Shown: one piece after another, positions 98 to 25,360 of the stretch | Layout: every line of letters begins with the position of its first letter | How positions within the stretch are numbered: position 1 is the first letter of the stretch | Source of the DNA: a virus | Reading direction: 5' to 3' (one strand) | IMG/VR virus record: IMGVR_UViG_3300003885_000022 | Coordinates: 1 to 46,248 of that record | DNA length: 46,248 bases | The notes under the pieces: model-generated | Database searches by the model: none | Told to the model about the DNA's origin: nothing | What the model saw: the letters and a program-made list of their open reading frames with translations, nothing else | Made by a program: the position numbers and the translations under genes

Positions 98-2908
98 ATG
101 GGTAGTGCCGCACAAGCGTTAGCTAAATATAAACAGATGAATAAGGCGCGAAATAAAGAGGTGCCGGTCGTTGAAACCCCCGACGAAGTCATCAACCAGG
201 GGGAGGTCAACCCCCAAAATGACGCCCCGCCTTTAAGTAAAGCCGCGCAAGCGTTAGCGAGATTTAAGGCCGAAGCAGAACCTGAGGTGATAGTGGACAC
301 GGCGCCAACCGGCATTGAGGGTCAAATGACCGCCGATGTCCCCGGCTATGGCTATCTGGATACCTCAACCCCTAAACCAGATGAATCTTTTAATCCCTTA
401 ATCGTGAGTGAAGGGGTAAAGGAAGGGTTTGCGGACTTTGCCGCTGTCCCTGGTTATTTAGTGGATGGCGTCAATTGGATGGTCGATCAACTGCCGGGGG
501 TCGATATGGCCAATGACCCTGTCGGGGGTTCAAAACAAATTAGGGATGGGTGGCTTTTATTACTGACCCATCAAAAGCAACAACCTAAAAATAAACTAGA
601 GGAATATACCGGTAAGGTGGCCGAATTTGCCGGGGGTTCTATCGTCATGGGGGCGTCGATGGTGAACCGGATGTTAGCGGCCAACCAGACCATTAACCAA
701 GTCACCAAGGCCGTCTCCATGGAGGCCGTCTCTACCGTATCGGGCGGGGTAGTAGCGCAAGGGTATGGTGATTTCTTTGCCGAGGCGTACGGCGAGGAAT
801 ATCGTTACCTGGGCGAGATTGCGGGCGGGATAGGGGGAACGACCTTACCGGGAGTCTTGAAGTCATTGGTTCAAAAAGCCGGGTTAGCGTATGGCCCCTT
901 AAAAAAGGTGTTAATGGCGCGTGACATGGAGTCGGTGAGTGATTTAGTCGATGAGTTTATCCCCGATGCGGCCTTAAAATCATCCCGTAAAAAGATTGCA
1001 GCGGCGATTGGGGATAATCCCAGTTCGAGCCGTAATATCGATGAGGCCATGGCGTTAGAGCAGCAGATTGAAGGGTTCAAGCCTTCCATGGCGCAAGCCT
1101 CAGATGCCCCGGGCATGAAGGCTATGCAGGATCAAATCAACGCCCGTAGTGTCGAGAATATCAACCAGGCCATGAAGACGGAAATGGCCAATGGTGAAGC
1201 GATTTATGCGTATTACCGCAAGAATTTCCCCGAGCAGATTGACCAACCGTTTGATGCCAAGCGTCAGTTCAAACAGACTCGAATGAAGCTGCGCCAGGAG
1301 CAGGCGAAAATTGAATCCCAATACAAGGTGGAGGCCAAAACTTATCCTCGTACCGATAGTGAGAAAGTCGGCTCACGATTGCAGGTGCTCGCGAAAGCAA
1401 AAATGAAGCTGGTCAAAAAGGTAAAAAATAAAAATTATGATGACCTGTACGATGTCGCCGATGAATTAGGGGTGGTGGAAGACATTACCGATATTCGACG
1501 CATGGTGGGGGATATTAATAAACAAGATCAAACTTTCTTCGATACGGTGCCGGGGGTTTACGCCAAGATTAAATCTTTATTGAAAACCGGTAAAGAGGCC
1601 ACCGCAACCCCCGCCGATAATGTCGCCAGCTTTCGTAAAATCCATTCGTTGTATCGGGAAGTCAGTCGTGAATATGGCCGTGCATTACGTGCCGATGATG
1701 GCGTTAAGTTATTTCATTTGGATAATCTCAAACAAAACCTGGACAATAAATTAGCCGGGTTTGAAGACCCCGCTTATGGCAATTTTGCCAACCGGAAAAA
1801 GGCGGTCGATCTTTTTTATAAAGAGGAGTATTTGAATGTCTTTAAAAAAGGCATTGGCGCTAAAATAAGCGGGGTGCGAGGTCGTGAGTCAACCCCTGAA
1901 GGCAAGATTATCAGCGATCTGGTCTTAACCAAGGGTAGCTCTCGCGGCCTGGATCAGTACCGTAAATTGTACGGTGATTCGCCAGAAAGTAATGTCTTAT
2001 TACAAGAGGGCATACTGGATACCTTCTCTCAAAAAACAGTCAAGCAAGGAACCTTATCCCAATCCTCAATTGATAATTTTATGGGCGATTATAAAGAGGT
2101 GCTGGCTAAGACACCCAGCCTGCAACGTCGATTTGCCGATACCGCAACCTTGCTCGATGACATGGCCAGGCGCAATCAGGTATTGAAGAAACGCGAGAAA
2201 ATCTTCACCAATGCGGCGGCCTCACGTTATGCCAAACTGGCCGGGATGGATGATTTGGACAGCGCAGTGGGGATGGGCTTAACCGATAAGCCGACGATGC
2301 GTTTGCTGATGCGCTCGATGAAAACCCAAGAGGCAAAGGCGGGACTGGCCACCAATGTAGCCGATCATGTGATGGATCAACCCAATCCCTGGACGTTTTT
2401 AAAAGACAATGAAAATACCTTAAAACCCCTATTCAATCAGTTAAAGCCGGGCCATTACAATAATTTGAAGACGGTGGCCGACGCGATGGAAATTCTCAAT
2501 CGTCATAAGACGAATTTAAGAGTGAACCCGATGAATGGGGCAGTTGATGCCCTTCACGCCAAGATAGGCACCAGTATTCCTTCCGCCTTTGCCCAGGTGA
2601 GATGGGCCGCCCTTTACGGTAAAACCTCGATGGAATATGTCGTTGCCGACATTGGCTCAAAATATCTCTTTAAGTTACGCAATGATAATACCGAACGGCT
2701 CATTGAAGAGGCGTTGTATGATTCGGATTTAGCCCAATTATTATCCGATATTGCGACTCAACCCGCCGCCAAGCCCAGCCCGAAGATTGTCAAAAAATTG
2801 GGGCAAAAGGCAATCGAGATCGGTATTCGACTAGGGGAGCGCACCATTCGTTCGGGTGCAATTGCCTATGATAGTGATGAGAAAGAACAGCAAGCATTAA
2901 CCCCATAA
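98..2908 (+). CDS. Large internal virion / DNA ejection protein (P22 gp16 position)
   Basis: This encodes a 936-residue, mostly helical protein. The N-terminus contains a repeated AAQALAKYK / AAQALARFK motif (residues about 4-12 and 48-56), then an acidic disordered linker, a Gly-rich hydrophobic stretch (about 170-255) that could contact membrane, and a long charged helical region. It lies directly after two smaller ejection-type genes (44271-46246 across the circle junction) and before the tailspike. P22 places gp7, gp20 and gp16 in the same order. I infer that it is packaged in the capsid and injected with DNA. No lysozyme or transglycosylase motif was recognised. The assignment rests on size, composition and position rather than a diagnostic domain. 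Confidence 0.65.
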   Translation: MGSAAQALAKYKQMNKARNKEVPVVETPDEVINQGEVNPQNDAPPLSKAAQALARFKAEAEPEVIVDTAPTGIEGQMTADVPGYGYLDTSTPKPDESFNPLIVSEGVKEGFADFAAVPGYLVDGVNWMVDQLPGVDMANDPVGGSKQIRDGWLLLLTHQKQQPKNKLEEYTGKVAEFAGGSIVMGASMVNRMLAANQTINQVTKAVSMEAVSTVSGGVVAQGYGDFFAEAYGEEYRYLGEIAGGIGGTTLPGVLKSLVQKAGLAYGPLKKVLMARDMESVSDLVDEFIPDAALKSSRKKIAAAIGDNPSSSRNIDEAMALEQQIEGFKPSMAQASDAPGMKAMQDQINARSVENINQAMKTEMANGEAIYAYYRKNFPEQIDQPFDAKRQFKQTRMKLRQEQAKIESQYKVEAKTYPRTDSEKVGSRLQVLAKAKMKLVKKVKNKNYDDLYDVADELGVVEDITDIRRMVGDINKQDQTFFDTVPGVYAKIKSLLKTGKEATATPADNVASFRKIHSLYREVSREYGRALRADDGVKLFHLDNLKQNLDNKLAGFEDPAYGNFANRKKAVDLFYKEEYLNVFKKGIGAKISGVRGRESTPEGKIISDLVLTKGSSRGLDQYRKLYGDSPESNVLLQEGILDTFSQKTVKQGTLSQSSIDNFMGDYKEVLAKTPSLQRRFADTATLLDDMARRNQVLKKREKIFTNAAASRYAKLAGMDDLDSAVGMGLTDKPTMRLLMRSMKTQEAKAGLATNVADHVMDQPNPWTFLKDNENTLKPLFNQLKPGHYNNLKTVADAMEILNRHKTNLRVNPMNGAVDALHAKIGTSIPSAFAQVRWAALYGKTSMEYVVADIGSKYLFKLRNDNTERLIEEALYDSDLAQLLSDIATQPAAKPSPKIVKKLGQKAIEIGIRLGERTIRSGAIAYDSDEKEQQALTP

Positions 2909-6846: not shown

Positions 6847-6923
6847 TGGCGCGGCCAGTAGGATTCGAACCTACAACCCACGGCTTCGAAGGCCGTTATT
6901 CTGTCCAGTTGAACTATGGCCGC
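6847..6923 (-). tRNA. tRNA-Arg (anticodon TCG)
   Basis: This folds as a full cloverleaf: a 7-bp acceptor stem GCGGCCA/TGGCCGC, a D arm, an anticodon stem ACGGC/GCCGT around loop CTTCGAA (anticodon TCG, reading CGA), a T arm with GGTTCGAATCC, a G discriminator and an encoded CCA. It probably supplements decoding of CGA/CGN arginine codons. It sits three bases from a second Arg tRNA and about 500 bp from the integrase. Confidence 0.95.
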
Positions 6924-6926
6924 TAT

Positions 6927-7003
6927 TGGCGCGCTTGGCAGGATTCGAACCTGCGACCTGCGGTTTCGTAGACCGCCACTCTATCCAACTGAGCTACAAG
7001 CGC
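6927..7003 (-). tRNA. tRNA-Arg (anticodon ACG)
   Basis: The acceptor stem is GCGCTTG/CAAGCGC, and the anticodon stem GCGGT/ACCGC surrounds loop CTACGAA (anticodon ACG; A34 is normally edited to inosine, reading CGU/CGC/CGA). The T arm and an encoded CCA are present. Together with the TCG tRNA it covers most CGN codons. As a complete tRNA beside an integrase gene it could also mark the attachment site, but no truncated tRNA copy is seen. Confidence 0.95.
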
Positions 7004-17334: not shown

Positions 17335-17532
17335 CTAAAAGTGCGGGTTGTTGATATCATTTTTAACCATTTGGATTAATTTAATGATGGTTGTGTATGT
17401 AAATTGGACGGATCGCACGATCAAACCAAGCATAAAATGCAGGTTATAAAGCACAGCTCCAATTAACATCGGAATGAGTAGAAAACTATTCATATCGATA
17501 AATAGGTTTATATTGTTAATTATATTATCCAT
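17335..17532 (-). CDS. Small membrane protein (65 aa)
   Basis: The central FLLIPMLIGAVLYNLHFMLGLIV stretch is hydrophobic enough for one long or two short membrane helices, and a polar C-terminus follows. I chose the ATG at 17532, which overlaps the stop of the pentapeptide gene. A longer frame to 17562 would start inside that gene. It lies directly upstream of the secreted cysteine-rich protein, suggesting that both act at the envelope. A holin role is possible but has no specific support. Confidence 0.55.
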   Translation of the reverse strand: MDNIINNINLFIDMNSFLLIPMLIGAVLYNLHFMLGLIVRSVQFTYTTIIKLIQMVKNDINNPHF

Positions 17533-18160
17533 TAGTAGTTGGTCTGGCTGGGTTAACTTCAATAATTGATTTTAAAATAGGTTTCCATTTTTTCCAGAAC
17601 TCCAATGCATTATCGTCCATGCGATTTATTTCATGGTCAGAAAAATTAAACCAATCTATAATTGTATGTGTTTCGTCACATATAGATAAATGGGTACTCG
17701 TATAATTAGCTATCCATAGCCCACACTGTACTGTAATTATATTTATGCTATTACCTATAACATTATTAAGATTAGCATTGTCCAGGTTGGCATGAGATAA
17801 ATCAGTACAGCTTAGATTAGCACCATCCAAGTTGGCGTGAGATAAATCAGCATATTGCATATTGGCGTTGCTAAGGTTTGCGCGAGTCAAATCAACATAT
17901 TTCAGTGTAGAATGGCTTAGATTGGCATATTCCAGATTGGCATAGTCAAGATCGGCCTCCTGCAAATCGGCCCCTTTCATCCCAGCACTGTGCAGATTGA
18001 CCCCATGCAAATTAGCTTTATGTAGATTGGCTTTCAGCTTTAAACCCTGAAGCAGAGCGAGTCTTATTTTCTCACTAATGGTTGCTGTCTCACTGCAATC
18101 AATTGTAGCCGTGAATTGTACGTCACCTGTATATTTATTTTTTATGTCAAATTTATCCAT
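17525..18160 (-). CDS. Pentapeptide-repeat protein (211 aa)
   Basis: Residues about 41-133 are roughly 18 tandem A(D/N)LxX pentapeptides, which fold as a right-handed quadrilateral beta-helix. The N-terminus (KFDIKNKYTGDVQFTATIDC) is shared by a group of phage and bacterial pentapeptide proteins. The last 75 residues are non-repeat. Some pentapeptide proteins mimic DNA and protect gyrase, while others act in effector or toxin contexts. Nothing here specifies which. It overlaps both neighbours and belongs to the leftward accessory operon. Confidence 0.85.
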   Translation of the reverse strand: MDKFDIKNKYTGDVQFTATIDCSETATISEKIRLALLQGLKLKANLHKANLHGVNLHSAGMKGADLQEADLDYANLEYANLSHSTLKYVDLTRANLSNANMQYADLSHANLDGANLSCTDLSHANLDNANLNNVIGNSINIITVQCGLWIANYTSTHLSICDETHTIIDWFNFSDHEINRMDDNALEFWKKWKPILKSIIEVNPARPTTNG

Positions 18161-18353
18161 TAGATTGCCTTTTGCGGATTGGATTAAACGGGCCTTGTTG
18201 CCACTGAGTATATTGTGATTCGGTCAGTTCATGGCCTTGGTAGAGGAACTCGACATACTCTACCCAGGCTATATTGATTTGATCTATTGATCCTTGGCTT
18301 AATAAATCATGATATAAAGCTTTGAAGGTATGGATGGCGTATTTTTTACGCAT
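18153..18353 (-). CDS. Hypothetical protein (66 aa)
   Basis: This polar protein is rich in aromatics and glutamine (ELTESQYTQWQQGPFNPIRK). Its start follows directly on the TAA of the 39-aa gene, and its end overlaps the pentapeptide gene by eight bases. No recognised domain. Confidence 0.6.
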   Translation of the reverse strand: MRKKYAIHTFKALYHDLLSQGSIDQINIAWVEYVEFLYQGHELTESQYTQWQQGPFNPIRKRQSNG

Positions 18354-18473
18354 TTAAAGGGCAAGCGCCAGGCCGGTTTCTGACTCGAATAAGCAGGTTA
18401 ACTGCTCGGCGTAAATACCGCTTGCCGTTGATCGTGTCGTCTCGTTAAGTGCTTTTATATAGCTAAAGGTCAT
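18354..18473 (-). CDS. Microprotein (39 aa)
   Basis: This short frame begins ATG at 18473 and ends with a TAA that abuts the next ATG (TAAATG). The product has NETTRSTASGIYAEQL and a FESETGLALAL end, a pattern I associate with small uncharacterised phage proteins. It fills the only gap in the operon. Confidence 0.5.
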   Translation of the reverse strand: MTFSYIKALNETTRSTASGIYAEQLTCLFESETGLALAL

Positions 18474-18486
18474 GGTGTAAGTGTCG

Positions 18487-18762
18487 TTATTTTAATTTCC
18501 TAAGTTTTACTTTCCAGTGGTGAGGTTTAGCTGGTGTAACAACCATTATTTTAACGTAATGGATTGAATCCCCGTGTGTATCATGCGCGAATAAGGTGGT
18601 AAATTTCACTTTTGATTTTGTGCGCGTGCAATAAGATTGAGCTAGCACACAAAATTTATTTGCATCACCCTTTGTTACTTCGTAAATCGCCCAGTCCCCT
18701 ACGGGTAAGCGGATCAAATCGCCGATGGCAATATATCCGCTACCATATTTGTATTGATGCAT
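18487..18762 (-). CDS. Hypothetical protein (91 aa)
   Basis: This appears to be a beta-rich, basic small protein with YIAIGDLIRLPVGDWAIYEVTKGD at the start and a KPHHWKVKLRKLK tail. It might adopt a small SH3-like barrel. No family assignment. It is separated by 1 bp from the upstream gene and is probably transcribed from the promoter at 18976-19003. Confidence 0.55.
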   Translation of the reverse strand: MHQYKYGSGYIAIGDLIRLPVGDWAIYEVTKGDANKFCVLAQSYCTRTKSKVKFTTLFAHDTHGDSIHYVKIMVVTPAKPHHWKVKLRKLK

Positions 18763-18763
18763 T

Positions 18764-18937
18764 TTATTTATTATCTAAATCGTTTATAAGCTCAATCATT
18801 TGCGCCTTTGTATAGATATAATTATCTGCAAGGTTGGCCAATAGCGCTTTACAGTTACCTAAATTATACAAATATTCATCATTCGAAACGATTAATGTTA
18901 ATTCGCGATCTGTGTATTGTCTGATATCGGTTTTCAT
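18764..18937 (-). CDS. Hypothetical protein, first gene after inner accessory promoter (57 aa)
   Basis: I chose ATG at 18937 (MKTDIRQYTDREL), preceded by AGGA. A longer frame would start upstream of the promoter -35. The small acidic helical protein has no recognised domain. It is the first gene downstream of the operator-bearing promoter. Confidence 0.55.
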   Translation of the reverse strand: MKTDIRQYTDRELTLIVSNDEYLYNLGNCKALLANLADNYIYTKAQMIELINDLDNK

Positions 18938-18975
18938 GGCGGTGTGTCCTAAGTTTGTGTGAGTTGTTATAAGTA

Positions 18976-19003
18976 AGTATACTCTTAAAATAGAGTATGT
19001 CAA
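18976..19003 (-). promoter_or_regulatory. Promoter with embedded palindromic operator
   Basis: On the minus strand a perfect TTGACA (19003-18998) and TATACT (18981-18976) are separated by 16 bases. Spacer and -10 overlap a 20-bp palindrome, ATACTCTATTTTAAGAGTAT (18979-18998), with perfect 7-bp arms. A dimeric repressor bound there would block polymerase. A related site occurs in the promoter at 20931-20958. Confidence 0.75.
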
Positions 19004-19272
19004 CTAATTAATACATGGTGTAGCGTTAATGCGGTTTCATCGTCAAAAAGATCCTGCAATACGGATAGCTGCATAATTTCTTTGACGCGTTTGGGTGTCG
19101 CCATCCTGCCAGCAACCCAATTGTCGATATGTTTCATCTCGTAAAATGTCTGTAATTGTAGATTGACATGAGTTAGTGCAATCCGTTTGACATTTGCGAT
19201 TGATTGAGAGCGGCTACGATGATTGTCGAGATAGCAATTAATCAATGATTTACCTCGCATTTGCTCAATCAT
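19000..19272 (-). CDS. Hypothetical protein, weak helix-turn-helix candidate (90 aa)
   Basis: The segment from about residue 34 (HVNLQLQTFYEMKHIDNWVAGR, then TPKRVKEIMQ) looks faintly like the recognition part of a Cro/CI-type helix-turn-helix, with IDNW and a following proline. The fold call is weak. Its end overlaps the -35 of the next promoter. It could encode the regulator of the shared operator. Confidence 0.5.
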   Translation of the reverse strand: MIEQMRGKSLINCYLDNHRSRSQSIANVKRIALTHVNLQLQTFYEMKHIDNWVAGRMATPKRVKEIMQLSVLQDLFDDETALTLHHVLIS

Positions 19273-19574
19273 TTCGCGCCCCGTTTTAATGTGACGGGTT
19301 TTGATAATTGATCGACTATATCGTTATACATACACCAGTAGGCAATCTGTCGATTAAGCTCGCTTAGATCGTCAACAATCAACGCCCTGGCCGCTTCTGA
19401 TCCATATTCGTCGATAAAATAATCTGGGCTAGATGACCATAAAGCCACTGATAGACTGTAACCATCCCCAATATGCCAGTGGTGGCTAACGATTTGATAG
19501 TGAATCGCTTCTTGTATGTTTTCCTTCGCATCTGATAAATGTCTAATTTGTTTTAGGAAATCTATATTTTGCAT
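19269..19574 (-). CDS. Hypothetical protein (101 aa)
   Basis: This helical acidic protein has a central DGYSLSVALWSSSPDYFIDEYGSEAARAL segment and a C-terminal QIAYWCMYNDIVDQL. It overlaps the next gene by four bases. No domain was recognised. Confidence 0.55.
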   Translation of the reverse strand: MQNIDFLKQIRHLSDAKENIQEAIHYQIVSHHWHIGDGYSLSVALWSSSPDYFIDEYGSEAARALIVDDLSELNRQIAYWCMYNDIVDQLSKPVTLKRGAK

Positions 19575-19590
19575 TTTATTTACTCCTAAG

Positions 19591-19851
19591 TTAGTGGTTG
19601 ATAAAATTAAATACAGAGTGTCCCTTATCTATCTGAATATCACGATAGACAAACAAGCCTTGAAAAAATGCTTTCAGCGTATTGTCACTCATTTCATAAG
19701 CGCGATTATTATTTATGCTTGTCCGCCAGCCTTTAATTTTAGATTTGGTCGTTTTAATGCCGCCTAGTCTAAATATTTCAATTAATAAATATCGATCTTT
19801 AGCTAGTCCAGTTAAATGCAGTATTGTTTGAAATGTTTCGTTATTAGTCAT
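19591..19851 (-). CDS. DUF1456-like protein (86 aa)
   Basis: The pattern LHLTGLAKDRYLLIEIFRLGGIKTTKSKIKGW, with MSDNTLKAFFQGLFVYRD, follows the repeated unit of DUF1456 (YehS-like) proteins. Bacterial members usually carry two such units (about 150 aa), whereas this has one. The function of the family is unknown. Being rare in phage genomes, it may be a captured host gene. Confidence 0.65.
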   Translation of the reverse strand: MTNNETFQTILHLTGLAKDRYLLIEIFRLGGIKTTKSKIKGWRTSINNNRAYEMSDNTLKAFFQGLFVYRDIQIDKGHSVFNFINH

Positions 19852-19853
19852 AG

Positions 19854-20426
19854 TTATATATCGAGCTTGGTTTCCATTTTGGAAAACTGATGTTTCATGC
19901 TTTCGCTAGAAAATGAAAATAGAAAATAATTGTAATTTAAGTTGTAAGAAACTACAAAATGACAAAATGAATTTAGCTGATACTCAGATACAAAATTATT
20001 TTTATATCGTGCTTGAGTTTCTTTAACAAAACCAAAATAATTAAAAGTATATAAAAAATTACCTTTAAGTGTTTTCCGATAAAAGAACCGTTTTTCTAAC
20101 TTCGAAAAACACGCTTGGGTTAGTATTAGTTTCATCTTTGCGTTAATGCGCCGTATCGTATCTTCAAGAACATAATAATTGATAGCGATTGGCGTTACAG
20201 TATTGCAATCTCGATCTATCAAATTCTCAATAAAAAACACACTTCGATTCAATAGAATTTTATCTAAAACAATTGCAGTCGTTTTTTTGCTCAATATATT
20301 ATTAAACAGACTAGTTAATTCAGATTTTACTTTTGTATGTAATGCAGTAGTGTCGGCACTATATCTAATGCCCATACCGCCTTTCATTTCGTATGTTTCT
20401 AACGTCATACCGTTTTCTAATTTCAT
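19854..20426 (-). CDS. Hypothetical protein (190 aa), AT-rich gene
   Basis: This protein is rich in N, F, Y and K, with GMTLETYEMKGGMGIRY at its start. No domain, membrane segment or catalytic motif was recognised. The base composition is much lower in GC than the structural genes, as for all of 17.3-21 kb, which suggests separate acquisition. The ribosome-binding site AGGAG precedes the start. Its 5' leader contains the I-F-repeat-like hairpins. Confidence 0.6.
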   Translation of the reverse strand: MKLENGMTLETYEMKGGMGIRYSADTTALHTKVKSELTSLFNNILSKKTTAIVLDKILLNRSVFFIENLIDRDCNTVTPIAINYYVLEDTIRRINAKMKLILTQACFSKLEKRFFYRKTLKGNFLYTFNYFGFVKETQARYKNNFVSEYQLNSFCHFVVSYNLNYNYFLFSFSSESMKHQFSKMETKLDI

Positions 20427-20444: not shown

Positions 20445-20472
20445 GGATTTGTCTGCCTGTTCGGCAGGTATA
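20445..20472 (-). other. Second I-F-type hairpin (stem only)
   Basis: CTGCCGAACAGGCAG (minus strand, 20467-20453) has the same 5-bp stem and 5-base loop as a type I-F CRISPR repeat, with loop G and A ends kept. The flanks do not match a repeat. It lies 57 bases downstream of the fuller unit at 20502-20529 and just upstream of the 190-aa gene. Confidence 0.6.
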
Positions 20473-20501
20473 TATTAATGGCTCAAATGATGTACCATAT
20501 A

Positions 20502-20529
20502 TTTCTAAACTGCCTGCTCGGCAGTAAAC
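20502..20529 (-). CRISPR. Solitary type I-F CRISPR-repeat-like unit, candidate RNA anti-CRISPR
   Basis: Read on the minus strand, these 28 bases begin GTTTACTGCC and end GCAGTTTAGAAA. They differ from the canonical E. coli I-F repeat, as I remember it, at only four positions (4, 12, 13 and 21). The Cas6f stem CTGCC/GGCAG, the G and A that close its loop and the AGAAA end are kept. No cas genes and no regular array are present. Neighbouring hairpins at 20453-20467 and a degenerate one near 20564-20575 are 57 and 52 bases away, not the 60 of an I-F array. Solitary phage repeats of this type are known to act as RNA decoys (Racr). A DNA operator is the main alternative. Confidence 0.65.
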
Positions 20530-20585
20530 TATTGAATATAAACAAAATGTTATATTTTATAAACTGCTTATTCAGTAGAATTTTA

Positions 20586-20655: not shown

Positions 20656-20889
20656 TTATCCTTTATCAATCGAGAAAAAATATCTCTTTTTAGCATTGCT
20701 ATTATGATTTTTGAACGTAGTAATCGCACTATCAAACTCACTGTCACTAACACTAGTCAATTTAATATTATTGTCAGCACAATATAAGCACAACGTCTCG
20801 TAGTAATTAATATTTTTGCGATTATCTATTTCTATTGAGTTAGATATATTAGCGAAACTTGAAAAATTCATTCTTTCAGATAATGTCAT
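20656..20889 (-). CDS. Hypothetical protein, first gene of outer accessory operon (77 aa)
   Basis: This is a polar, asparagine- and serine-rich protein with no recognised domain. It lies directly downstream of the operator-bearing promoter at 20931-20958. Size, AT content and position as first gene resemble phage accessory or anti-defence genes, but nothing in the sequence proves such a role. Confidence 0.5.
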   Translation of the reverse strand: MTLSERMNFSSFANISNSIEIDNRKNINYYETLCLYCADNNIKLTSVSDSEFDSAITTFKNHNSNAKKRYFFSIDKG

Positions 20890-23119: not shown

Positions 23120-23216
23120 ATGGTTTGATCAACTCTTGGGTTGGTTGTTTCTGCTGGGTTTGATTGTGGGCGTGGGGTTGATCTGGGTGGGGTTGGAGTT
23201 ATGGTTAGCGCGGTAA
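23112..23216 (+). CDS. Single-span membrane microprotein (34 aa)
   Basis: A GTG start overlaps the end of the PAPS-reductase gene. Nearly the whole product (WFDQLLGWLFLLGLIVGVGLIWVG) is a hydrophobic helix. It ends inside the convergent AP2-like gene. It might be a small lysis or membrane-acting protein. Expression is inferred from coupling only. Confidence 0.4.
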   Translation: MSKWFDQLLGWLFLLGLIVGVGLIWVGLELWLAR

Positions 23217-23666
23217 TCTTACCTTGTAAGGGAAGTCTAATTGGCATAAGAGGGCTTTGGGACGAACGACAATCAATTCGCCTACCCCTTGATAGCGTGC
23301 TTCACAGGCGAAATAGAACGCCGTTGCCTCGCCGTAGAGGTTGATAGAGAAACTTTGTCGTTTCATTTTGCCTTTGTGTTGGATATGGGCTGTCCAGGAA
23401 TGAAAAGTTTTACCATGTTGGATGTTTTTACTTCGAACCACCCCGATACAAATCCCGGCAGGTTTGAAGGCTTGAAAGGTGCGACGAAAATGAAGCCCAT
23501 GCAGTGTCATGATTCGGTCACGCGCTTCAATTGCCAGTAATTTTGAACGGTTGACGCCGTCTAGTTTGATAAAATTGAATTGGCGGTCAAGCAGCATTTC
23601 CCCACCCACTCGAACCCTGACACGCCAGGCTTTAGGTGTGCGCAAGATGTATTTCATTGTTGCCAT
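23205..23666 (-). CDS. AP2-like DNA-binding protein, paralogue 1 (153 aa)
   Basis: The second half (about residues 70-135: GICIGVVRS, SWTAHIQHKGKMKRQSFSI, GEATAFYFACEARYQG) follows the AP2/ERF pattern of three strands and a helix used in phage DNA-binding proteins. The first half repeats a weaker version of the same pattern. It shares this layout and a KALLCQLDFPYK-like end with the genes at 24436 and 24896. Likely functions are transcriptional control or association with mobile nucleases. None can be chosen here. Confidence 0.6.
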   Translation of the reverse strand: MATMKYILRTPKAWRVRVRVGGEMLLDRQFNFIKLDGVNRSKLLAIEARDRIMTLHGLHFRRTFQAFKPAGICIGVVRSKNIQHGKTFHSWTAHIQHKGKMKRQSFSINLYGEATAFYFACEARYQGVGELIVVRPKALLCQLDFPYKVRLPR

Positions 23667-24443: not shown

Positions 24444-24909
24444 ACAATACGCCTTTTAAATAGTAGGGAACCGTCGGCCGACAAGGGAGTGACGATATCG
24501 GCCAAAGAACCGATAACCCCCCATTACGTTGGTAGCGGGCTTGACAAGCCAACTGGAAGGCCTTTTTAGCACCCCATTTGGTGATCGCAAAGGATTTACC
24601 CCAAACTTTACCCTCAACCCGACCGAGGGCTTTATAGGCACCATCATCATCAACACGTCGAGGGTCAACGGCGAATTCGATTCCCACAACCCCCGTCTTG
24701 TTTCGCCTCATTGTTTGGTAAGGGTGACGTGAGTTCTCTTTGCTGAGGTGGGGTATTGCCATCTTCAGTAACCGTTTAGAGCGGCCAGTTTGGGCGGCGG
24801 TCAAGGCCTTTTTCTTCCCGCCCCATTCACTAAAGGGGTAGAACCGGGTTGGCTTTAATCGAAGTTGATAGCCGTTGCTATGTTCTGAAATATATTTACC
24901 TTTTTGCAT
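24436..24909 (-). CDS. AP2-like DNA-binding protein, paralogue 2 (157 aa)
   Basis: The N-terminal half (YISEHSNGYQLRLK, FYPFSEWGGKKKALTAAQTGR) and the C-terminal half (VGIEFAVDPRRV, KSFAITKWGAKKAFQLACQARYQR) each show strands followed by an alanine-rich helix after a WGxKKA motif, as in duplicated AP2-like domains. It is paralogous to the genes on both sides of it in the block and overlaps its neighbours at both ends. Confidence 0.65.
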   Translation of the reverse strand: MQKGKYISEHSNGYQLRLKPTRFYPFSEWGGKKKALTAAQTGRSKRLLKMAIPHLSKENSRHPYQTMRRNKTGVVGIEFAVDPRRVDDDGAYKALGRVEGKVWGKSFAITKWGAKKAFQLACQARYQRNGGLSVLWPISSLPCRPTVPYYLKGVLYE

Positions 24910-25360
24910 AAATTTTCACCTTGACCTTTTCGTAGGGAACGGTCGGTTTATAGGGTAATGAACCCTTGACTTGCAATATGCCGCAACCGTCAAAACGAAC
25001 CTCACAAGCTAACTGAAAGGCCGCTTCATCCCCGTATTTATGGGCGGAGAAGGCTTGTCGTTTGCCTTGGATAAAGGCGCACCAGATGGTGGAGTATCGT
25101 TGGTTGGTATTCAGGCTTGAGTAACGGGAGATACCCACAATCGGGGAAAAGGGGGCATAAGGTGCGCGGCTGGTTTTGACGCCTTCAATGGCCACACTGA
25201 GACCGAGTTCTAAGCGTAATGTATTGCGATGCGCAATAGCGGCGGCCTGGGCTTTTTTTATCCCGCCCCATTGTTTGAAGGGGAAGTTTTGACAGTAGAG
25301 GTGGTTTTCGGCTTGTATTTCACACACCCAGCTATGGGGAGTTCGGTAGACATTTCTCAT
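24896..25360 (-). CDS. AP2-like DNA-binding protein, paralogue 3 (154 aa)
   Basis: Two AP2-like units are visible: residues about 5-50 (RTPHSWVCEIQAENHLYCQNF, then KQWGGIKKAQAAAIAHRN) and about 70-135 (VGISRYSSL, WCAFIQGKRQAFSAHKYGDEAAFQLACEVRF). It is the first gene of the leftward block that separates small and large terminase genes. The three copies probably arose by tandem duplication and then diverged. Confidence 0.65.
   Translation of the reverse strand: MRNVYRTPHSWVCEIQAENHLYCQNFPFKQWGGIKKAQAAAIAHRNTLRLELGLSVAIEGVKTSRAPYAPFSPIVGISRYSSLNTNQRYSTIWCAFIQGKRQAFSAHKYGDEAAFQLACEVRFDGCGILQVKGSLPYKPTVPYEKVKVKIYAKR

Follow-up and report, generated by a model that had tools for sequence, protein, structure and literature searches.

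A cluster of three hairpins in a phage genome (IMG/VR record IMGVR_UViG_3300003885_000022) is probably an RNA anti-CRISPR (Racr) directed against a putative host type I-F system, and would constitute a short array of tandem repeats in place of a single unit. The record, 46,248 bp in length and referred to as a whole as the window, encodes an integrase, a terminase and a portal protein. The cluster is intergenic, with open reading frames (ORFs) at 20656–20889 and 19854–20426 on either side, and its hairpins are co-oriented at 20578–20564, 20524–20510 and 20467–20453, the middle one being that of repeat R1 (Table 1). Judging from sequence comparisons, an RNA inhibitor of type I-F is the best-supported explanation because loci with the same layout adjoin homologues of AcrIF24 and AcrIF8. 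This partly supports the RNA-based inhibition proposed in the original prediction, but the “solitary” unit described there was not what was found, as a second hairpin lies 42 nt downstream of R1 and a third 39 nt upstream, both inside 100 bp. The published survey tool for solitary repeats, SRUFinder, drops any candidate that has a partial repeat flanking it at up to 100 bp (PMC10651486), hence a tandem cluster does not count as solitary there and the tandem class lies outside that survey.

Table 1 Features of the hairpin cluster and the adjoining operon in the window
Feature	Position	Strand	Basis
psiR0, degenerate upstream I-F repeat, CTACTGAATAAGCAGTTTATAAA	20556–20578	−	Variant-consensus score; gap of 39 nt to R1
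Pseudo-spacer S1, 26 nt, psiR0 to R1	20530–20555	−	Sequence
Weak sigma-70-like promoter, TTTATA-17-TATATT, directly 5′ of R1	20535–20563	−	Consensus scan, 9/12
R1, full I-F repeat mimic, GTTTACTGCCGAGCAGGCAGTTTAGAAA	20502–20529	−	Rfam, consensus match, fold
Pseudo-spacer S2, 29 nt (canonical I-F 32), R1 to R2	20473–20501	−	Palindrome gap of 42 nt
R2, terminal I-F hairpin without AGAAA handle, CTGCCGAACAGGCAG	20453–20467	−	Sequence
190-aa ORF	19854–20426	−	ATG 26 nt past R2; Shine-Dalgarno-like AGGAGA
86-aa DUF1456-like protein	19591–19851	−	Pfam DUF1456, E = 9.8e-6, narrowly missing the cut-off
Small co-directional accessory-operon ORFs (101, 90, 79, 91 and 66 aa)	18153–19574	−	ORF list

Anatomy of the hairpin cluster

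R1 matched the I-F repeat consensus at 24 of 28 positions on the minus strand, exactly as had been predicted. No other site in the window matched at more than 17–18 positions, and across 60 Markov simulations of 46 kb the best matches were 17–22, with 24 never reached. Alignment with CRISPR repeat families, proposed as a check on the prediction, gave a full-length match to Rfam CRISPR-DR4 (RF01317) at 39.4 bits, above the gathering score of 35 (E = 3.3e-7). With a folding energy of −9.7 kcal/mol (z = −3.2), the R1 hairpin behaves as expected of a Cas6f substrate; folding z-scores ranged from −3.2 to −4.0. The claim that cas genes are absent also held, as neither Cas6f nor Cas1 was detected in a search of the whole record.

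Canonical I-F arrays have 45 nt between palindromes, a 32-nt spacer and a 60-nt repeat period. The window cluster departs from this, with palindrome gaps of 39 nt (psiR0–R1) and 42 nt (R1–R2), equivalent to periods of 54 and 57 nt, and is therefore a three-hairpin cluster with sub-canonical spacing. The upstream unit, psiR0, consists of a hairpin CTACTGAATAAGCAG with one A–C stem mismatch and a handle-like TTTATAAA. It agrees with a variant consensus built from other phage elements at 19 of 21 positions, a score which none of 2000 flank simulations reached and to which none came closer than 15; a counterpart, CTGCTGAATAAGCAG, is present in two other loci (L002 and L234). Immediately 5′ of psiR0, a 12-codon ORF (MALSNIIEYISA, 20624–20586, minus strand) is preceded by a Shine-Dalgarno-like AGGAG, and could possibly be a leader peptide or a chance occurrence.

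No CC-flanked local target was found for either pseudo-spacer (S1, p = 0.29; S2, p = 0.96), nor one for S2 across the whole phage (p = 0.45). Local self-regulation through S1 or S2 was rejected, with both spacers scoring at the null. A Racr is expected to have a promoter within 250 bp upstream; promoter-like sites in the region numbered 6 against 3.8 in shuffled sequences, so the excess is not clear, and a conserved −10 box just 5′ of R1 was also rejected (0.54 versus 0.38 in shuffles, inside the shuffled range). The weakness of the promoter, and the lack of a terminator after R2, count against the Racr reading.

Recurrence in phages and separation from chromosomal elements

Pattern scans of viral contigs and species genomes detected many hairpin pairs with gaps below 45 nt, and the same tandem layout as in the window at approximately 40 phage loci. 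Most isolated pairs (88/96) carry a handle on the first palindrome and none on the second, with a second handle in only 8/96. A further scan of non-array viral I-F repeats, which did not select for pairs, returned at least 28 pair loci and at least 25 single loci. Another 42 phage records matching one locus (L166:2600–2950) were not counted, because the match was to the neighbouring region and not the element; one record that was inspected had no palindrome there.

For each isolated pair, the best CC-flanked partial match to the spacer within 1.5 kb was compared with those of shuffled spacers. A strong match (p ≤ 0.01), mostly 30–190 nt away, was found for 57 of 70 chromosomal pairs, whereas none of the isolated viral pairs had a CC-flanked local target at p = 0.05; the viral and chromosomal classes hence separate cleanly by local target. 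The chromosomal pairs examined (from Cedecea, Shewanella, Zoogloea and others) lie inside or beside an I-F cas operon, and those with a near target have the known CreA/CreR design. These CreA/CreR-like elements (L047–L149, e.g. L057, L099, L106 and L116) have 20- or 26-nt spacers, a nearby CC-flanked target and adjoining cas operons in several genera, and some precede genes encoding proteins that start with MKPS. Spacers acting as internal hairpins were also considered, and this idea was rejected: viral (7/40) and CreA-like (8/53) spacers fell below 0.05 with no difference between them.

Spacing and RNA-level signatures

Among non-redundant pairs, gaps following a 45 − 6n series were over-represented in both viral (17/44, p = 4e-4) and chromosomal elements (27/54, p = 1.7e-8). 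Gaps of 27, 33 and 39 nt correspond to spacers of 14, 20 and 26 nt, exactly the lengths given by L = 6N − 4 with three, four or five Cas7f subunits, and the 6-nt step matches the Cas7f footprint. In the Aggregatibacter I-F1 system, approximately 14 nt is the lower spacer limit for a stable Cascade, and R-loops form with spacers of ≤26 nt but Cas2/3 is not triggered (PMC7296934). The R1–R2 spacer of the window, at 29 nt, is shorter than 32 nt yet off the 6-nt register, which counts against the Racr reading.

Neighbouring hairpins identified solely by loop and handle retained all five stem pairs in 26 of 29 cases, with covariation in the form of T–A replacing C–G at one pair (n = 8) and G–U pairs (n = 4). 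Intrinsic terminators follow 19 of 42 clusters, against 0.9 expected, and in many phages the cluster is located 3′ of a gene.

Linkage to anti-CRISPR genes

Homologues of AcrIF24 or AcrIF8 were detected at 15/42 pair loci, but at none of 52 array loci (Fisher 1e-6) or 35 single-repeat loci (6e-5), an enrichment that includes some related phages and amounts by our own count to approximately 13 independent cases after near-duplicates are dropped. Where measured, the acr genes lie 9–525 nt before the hairpin on the same strand, and the AcrIF8 homologues match Pfam AcrF8 (E = 6.5e-25 and 1.7e-16). In a reverse check starting from a protein search, all four close AcrIF24 homologues (LESphi3, IME307, P. 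indoloxydans and G168) had a cluster directly downstream. AcrIF24 is rare: among 399 Pseudomonas genomes only 2 carry it, and in each of these the gene is immediately followed by the hairpin cluster.

The same type of element directly adjoins acrIF23-acrIF24 and acrIF8-aca2 loci (PMC9638941, PMC7648647). In the Pseudomonas phages LESphi3 (L293:1768–1830, OQ594956) and IME307 (L294:2001–2065, MN096267), a pair with a terminator is located ~55 nt 3′ of acrIF24, the gene being annotated in LESphi3. The terms “CRISPR repeat” and “downstream” do not occur in the text of PMC9638941. In another Pseudomonas species, an AcrIF24 homologue is followed directly by four I-F hairpins (gaps 31–33) with a terminator (L310, ~1316–1458, minus strand). 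Phage ZF40 has a lone handle-less I-F-type palindrome downstream of acrIF8-aca2 (L307:2290–2304), within a larger inverted repeat and immediately ahead of the integrase gene. In the window, unlike at these loci, neither AcrIF24 nor AcrIF8 nor Aca2 could be recognised, and the neighbour is a DUF1456-like protein instead; the failure of a profile search to recognise AcrIF24 or AcrIF8 in the window counts against the Racr reading.

Proposed mode of action

As the layout recurs in many phages, often beside known acr genes, the cluster probably makes decoy guide RNAs. A minus-strand transcript forming the 5′ UTR of the 190-aa/DUF1456 operon would bear three Cas6f-type hairpins, with host Cas6f expected to bind and to cleave on the 3′ side of both R1 and R2. 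The predicted R1–R2 product is crRNA-like, with an 8-nt handle TTTAGAAA, an undersized, non-targeting 29-nt “spacer” and the R2 hairpin, and an additional RacrIF1-like piece would have R1 at its end. We infer that such decoys would draw Cas6f, Cas7f and, via the intact handle, Cas5f–Cas8f into undersized complexes unable to trigger Cas2/3, so that real crRNAs would be starved and type I-F immunity inhibited.

The element resembles RacrIF1 and other solitary Racrs (PMC10651486) in being an intergenic phage mimic of the I-F repeat, with no cas genes, a predicted Cas6f substrate and membership of an acr-linked class. It differs from RacrIF1, which has one repeat, in its three hairpins and short pseudo-spacers. 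The upstream product of RacrIF1 has no handle and gathers Cas6f together with a long filament of Cas7f, Cas5f and Cas8f being absent for want of the handle, and a non-targeting crRNA alone inhibits immunity (PMC10651486). The R1–R2 product of the window, in contrast, would carry a 5′ handle, and the products of the cluster are likely to be handle-bearing, short-spacer crRNA-like RNAs that differ from those of RacrIF1.

Alternative explanations

The palindromes could instead be DNA operators bound by an Aca-like phage repressor controlling the accessory operon, which we regard as distinctly unlikely. Two near-identical palindromes do lie upstream of an operon with a possible regulator (DUF1456-like), and two inverted repeats are frequent in Aca promoters (PMC9410906), but the G..A of the loop and the AGAAA handle on one side are conserved, G–U pairs occur in the stems and Rfam recognises a CRISPR repeat. 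The refuting case named in the original prediction, many copies of the palindrome at repressor-bound promoters of unrelated phages, was borne out only by half: the palindrome does recur in such phages, but its position varies across phages and is often 3′ of acr genes, just before terminators, where an operator role does not fit. The terminators also bear on a 5′-UTR processing switch, in which Cas6f would cut R1 and R2 and alter expression of the 190-aa gene, the hairpins sensing an I-F host. The 26 nt between R2 and the ATG would suit such a switch, as would five loci where the cluster is directly 5′ of a start codon (L009, L038, L154, L159 and L165), yet approximately half of the clusters terminate rather than lead into a gene, hence this cannot be the general function and is very unlikely here. 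Least probable of all, and in our judgement extremely so, is a functionless fragment of a captured and decayed CRISPR array: the stem mismatch of psiR0 and the handle-less R2 have the look of decay, but unrelated phages show the same spacing and the same lack of a handle at the end, covariation maintains the stems and there is the linkage of the class to acr genes.

Two further explanations give the spacer a target. A functional mini-array whose spacer is genuine, turning host Cascade on rival phages, appears highly improbable. Its support is the only CC-flanked S2 match in the viral collection with all 17 spacer positions required, which falls within the portal gene of a distant relative, this portal being 31% identical to that of the window (L295:11962–11983, minus strand; the first 20 positions agree except at 12 and 18). 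Approximately 0.8 such matches are expected by chance, however, by our own estimate for an assumed collection size, while a synonym-tolerant search of portal codons for an S2 protospacer found none, no CC-flanked site in the viral collection matched the spacer of another element, and a spacer below 32 nt should not trigger Cas2/3 (PMC7296934). The spacer of a second element gave only scattered near-matches in Pseudomonas genomes. Viral mini-arrays of inter-virus competition (reviewed in PMC11656645) share with the window one or two spacers, host-like repeats, a viral genome and the absence of cas genes, but have host-identical repeats and spacers matching related viruses, whereas the window has diverged repeats, no convincing protospacer and spacers probably too short for Cas2/3 licensing.

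A CreR/CreA-like guide that represses a promoter via host Cascade is just as improbable as the mini-array. The anatomy and 6-nt-stepped spacing are those of the chromosomal I-F CreA/CreR-like elements, and a shortened spacer between two repeat-like hairpins without a regular array is shared with I-F CreTA (PMC10097628), where the Acinetobacter CreA has a 20-nt spacer compared with 29 nt between R1 and R2. CreA, however, lies in a cas locus with a CC-flanked target nearby, whereas the phage elements lie in phages and have no such target; the window shows no cas locus association, and no CC-flanked target was found in it either locally or in the rest of the phage. Against 31 I-F cas-gene loci, most of them from non-host species, viral spacers likewise scored at the null, and in Pseudomonas indoloxydans, a genome with I-F cas genes, neither the genome nor its cas region contained a target for the spacer of a prophage element. 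It is unlikely, if somewhat less far-fetched, that a widespread, unsurveyed set of truncated crRNA genes in Cas7f register makes small nuclease-dead Cascades, some of which would guide repression of host or rival-phage genes; the fit of S2 to the portal gene of another phage could be cited for such a programmable repressor.

Implications of a tandem class

We found no description of the tandem short-spacer class in the literature searched (open PMC papers). The published survey kept only truly solitary repeats, while the tandem class is the one found beside validated I-F acr genes. If the decoy RNA reading is correct, RNA anti-CRISPRs would be more common than described and built differently, and would include ready-made undersized crRNAs able to sequester a larger part of Cascade than RacrIF1 does. 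Standard PA14 assays are directly applicable to the acrIF24-linked elements found in phages of Pseudomonas aeruginosa. The tandem cluster could also serve as a new marker for the discovery of acr and aca genes, here pointing to the DUF1456-like neighbour.

Downstream operon and genomic setting

The 190-aa ORF is a candidate accessory or acr gene, with no family in Pfam, NCBIfam or PDB and no homologues found. Its AlphaFold model was unusable (pLDDT 34) and that of the 90-aa ORF was poor, both made without an alignment, and family searches assigned none of the small accessory-operon ORFs. The 86-aa DUF1456-like protein is homologous to the neighbour of another element, L231 (phmmer 4e-10), and belongs to a neighbour family common to the window, L151, L161 and L231 (HMM 3.2e-8; alignment including L151 and L161). 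In L151 and L161 the gene order is the same as in the window, with the hairpin cluster followed by an unknown gene and then the DUF1456-like gene. This order resembles that of acr-aca loci, by which analogy the DUF1456-like protein is a candidate Aca-type regulator.

No region homologous to the window was found among named phages. The element is absent from a phage relative (L169, best terminase segment 80% identical), which counts against the Racr reading. The accessory operon also encodes a pentapeptide-repeat protein (17525–18160, minus strand; Pfam Pentapeptide, E = 3e-27). Elsewhere in the record, two AP2-domain proteins are encoded close to the terminase gene (23205–23666 and 24896–25360, minus strand), and two tRNA-Arg genes (anticodons tcg and acg) lie side by side at 6847–7003 (minus strand) with the integrase gene adjoining.
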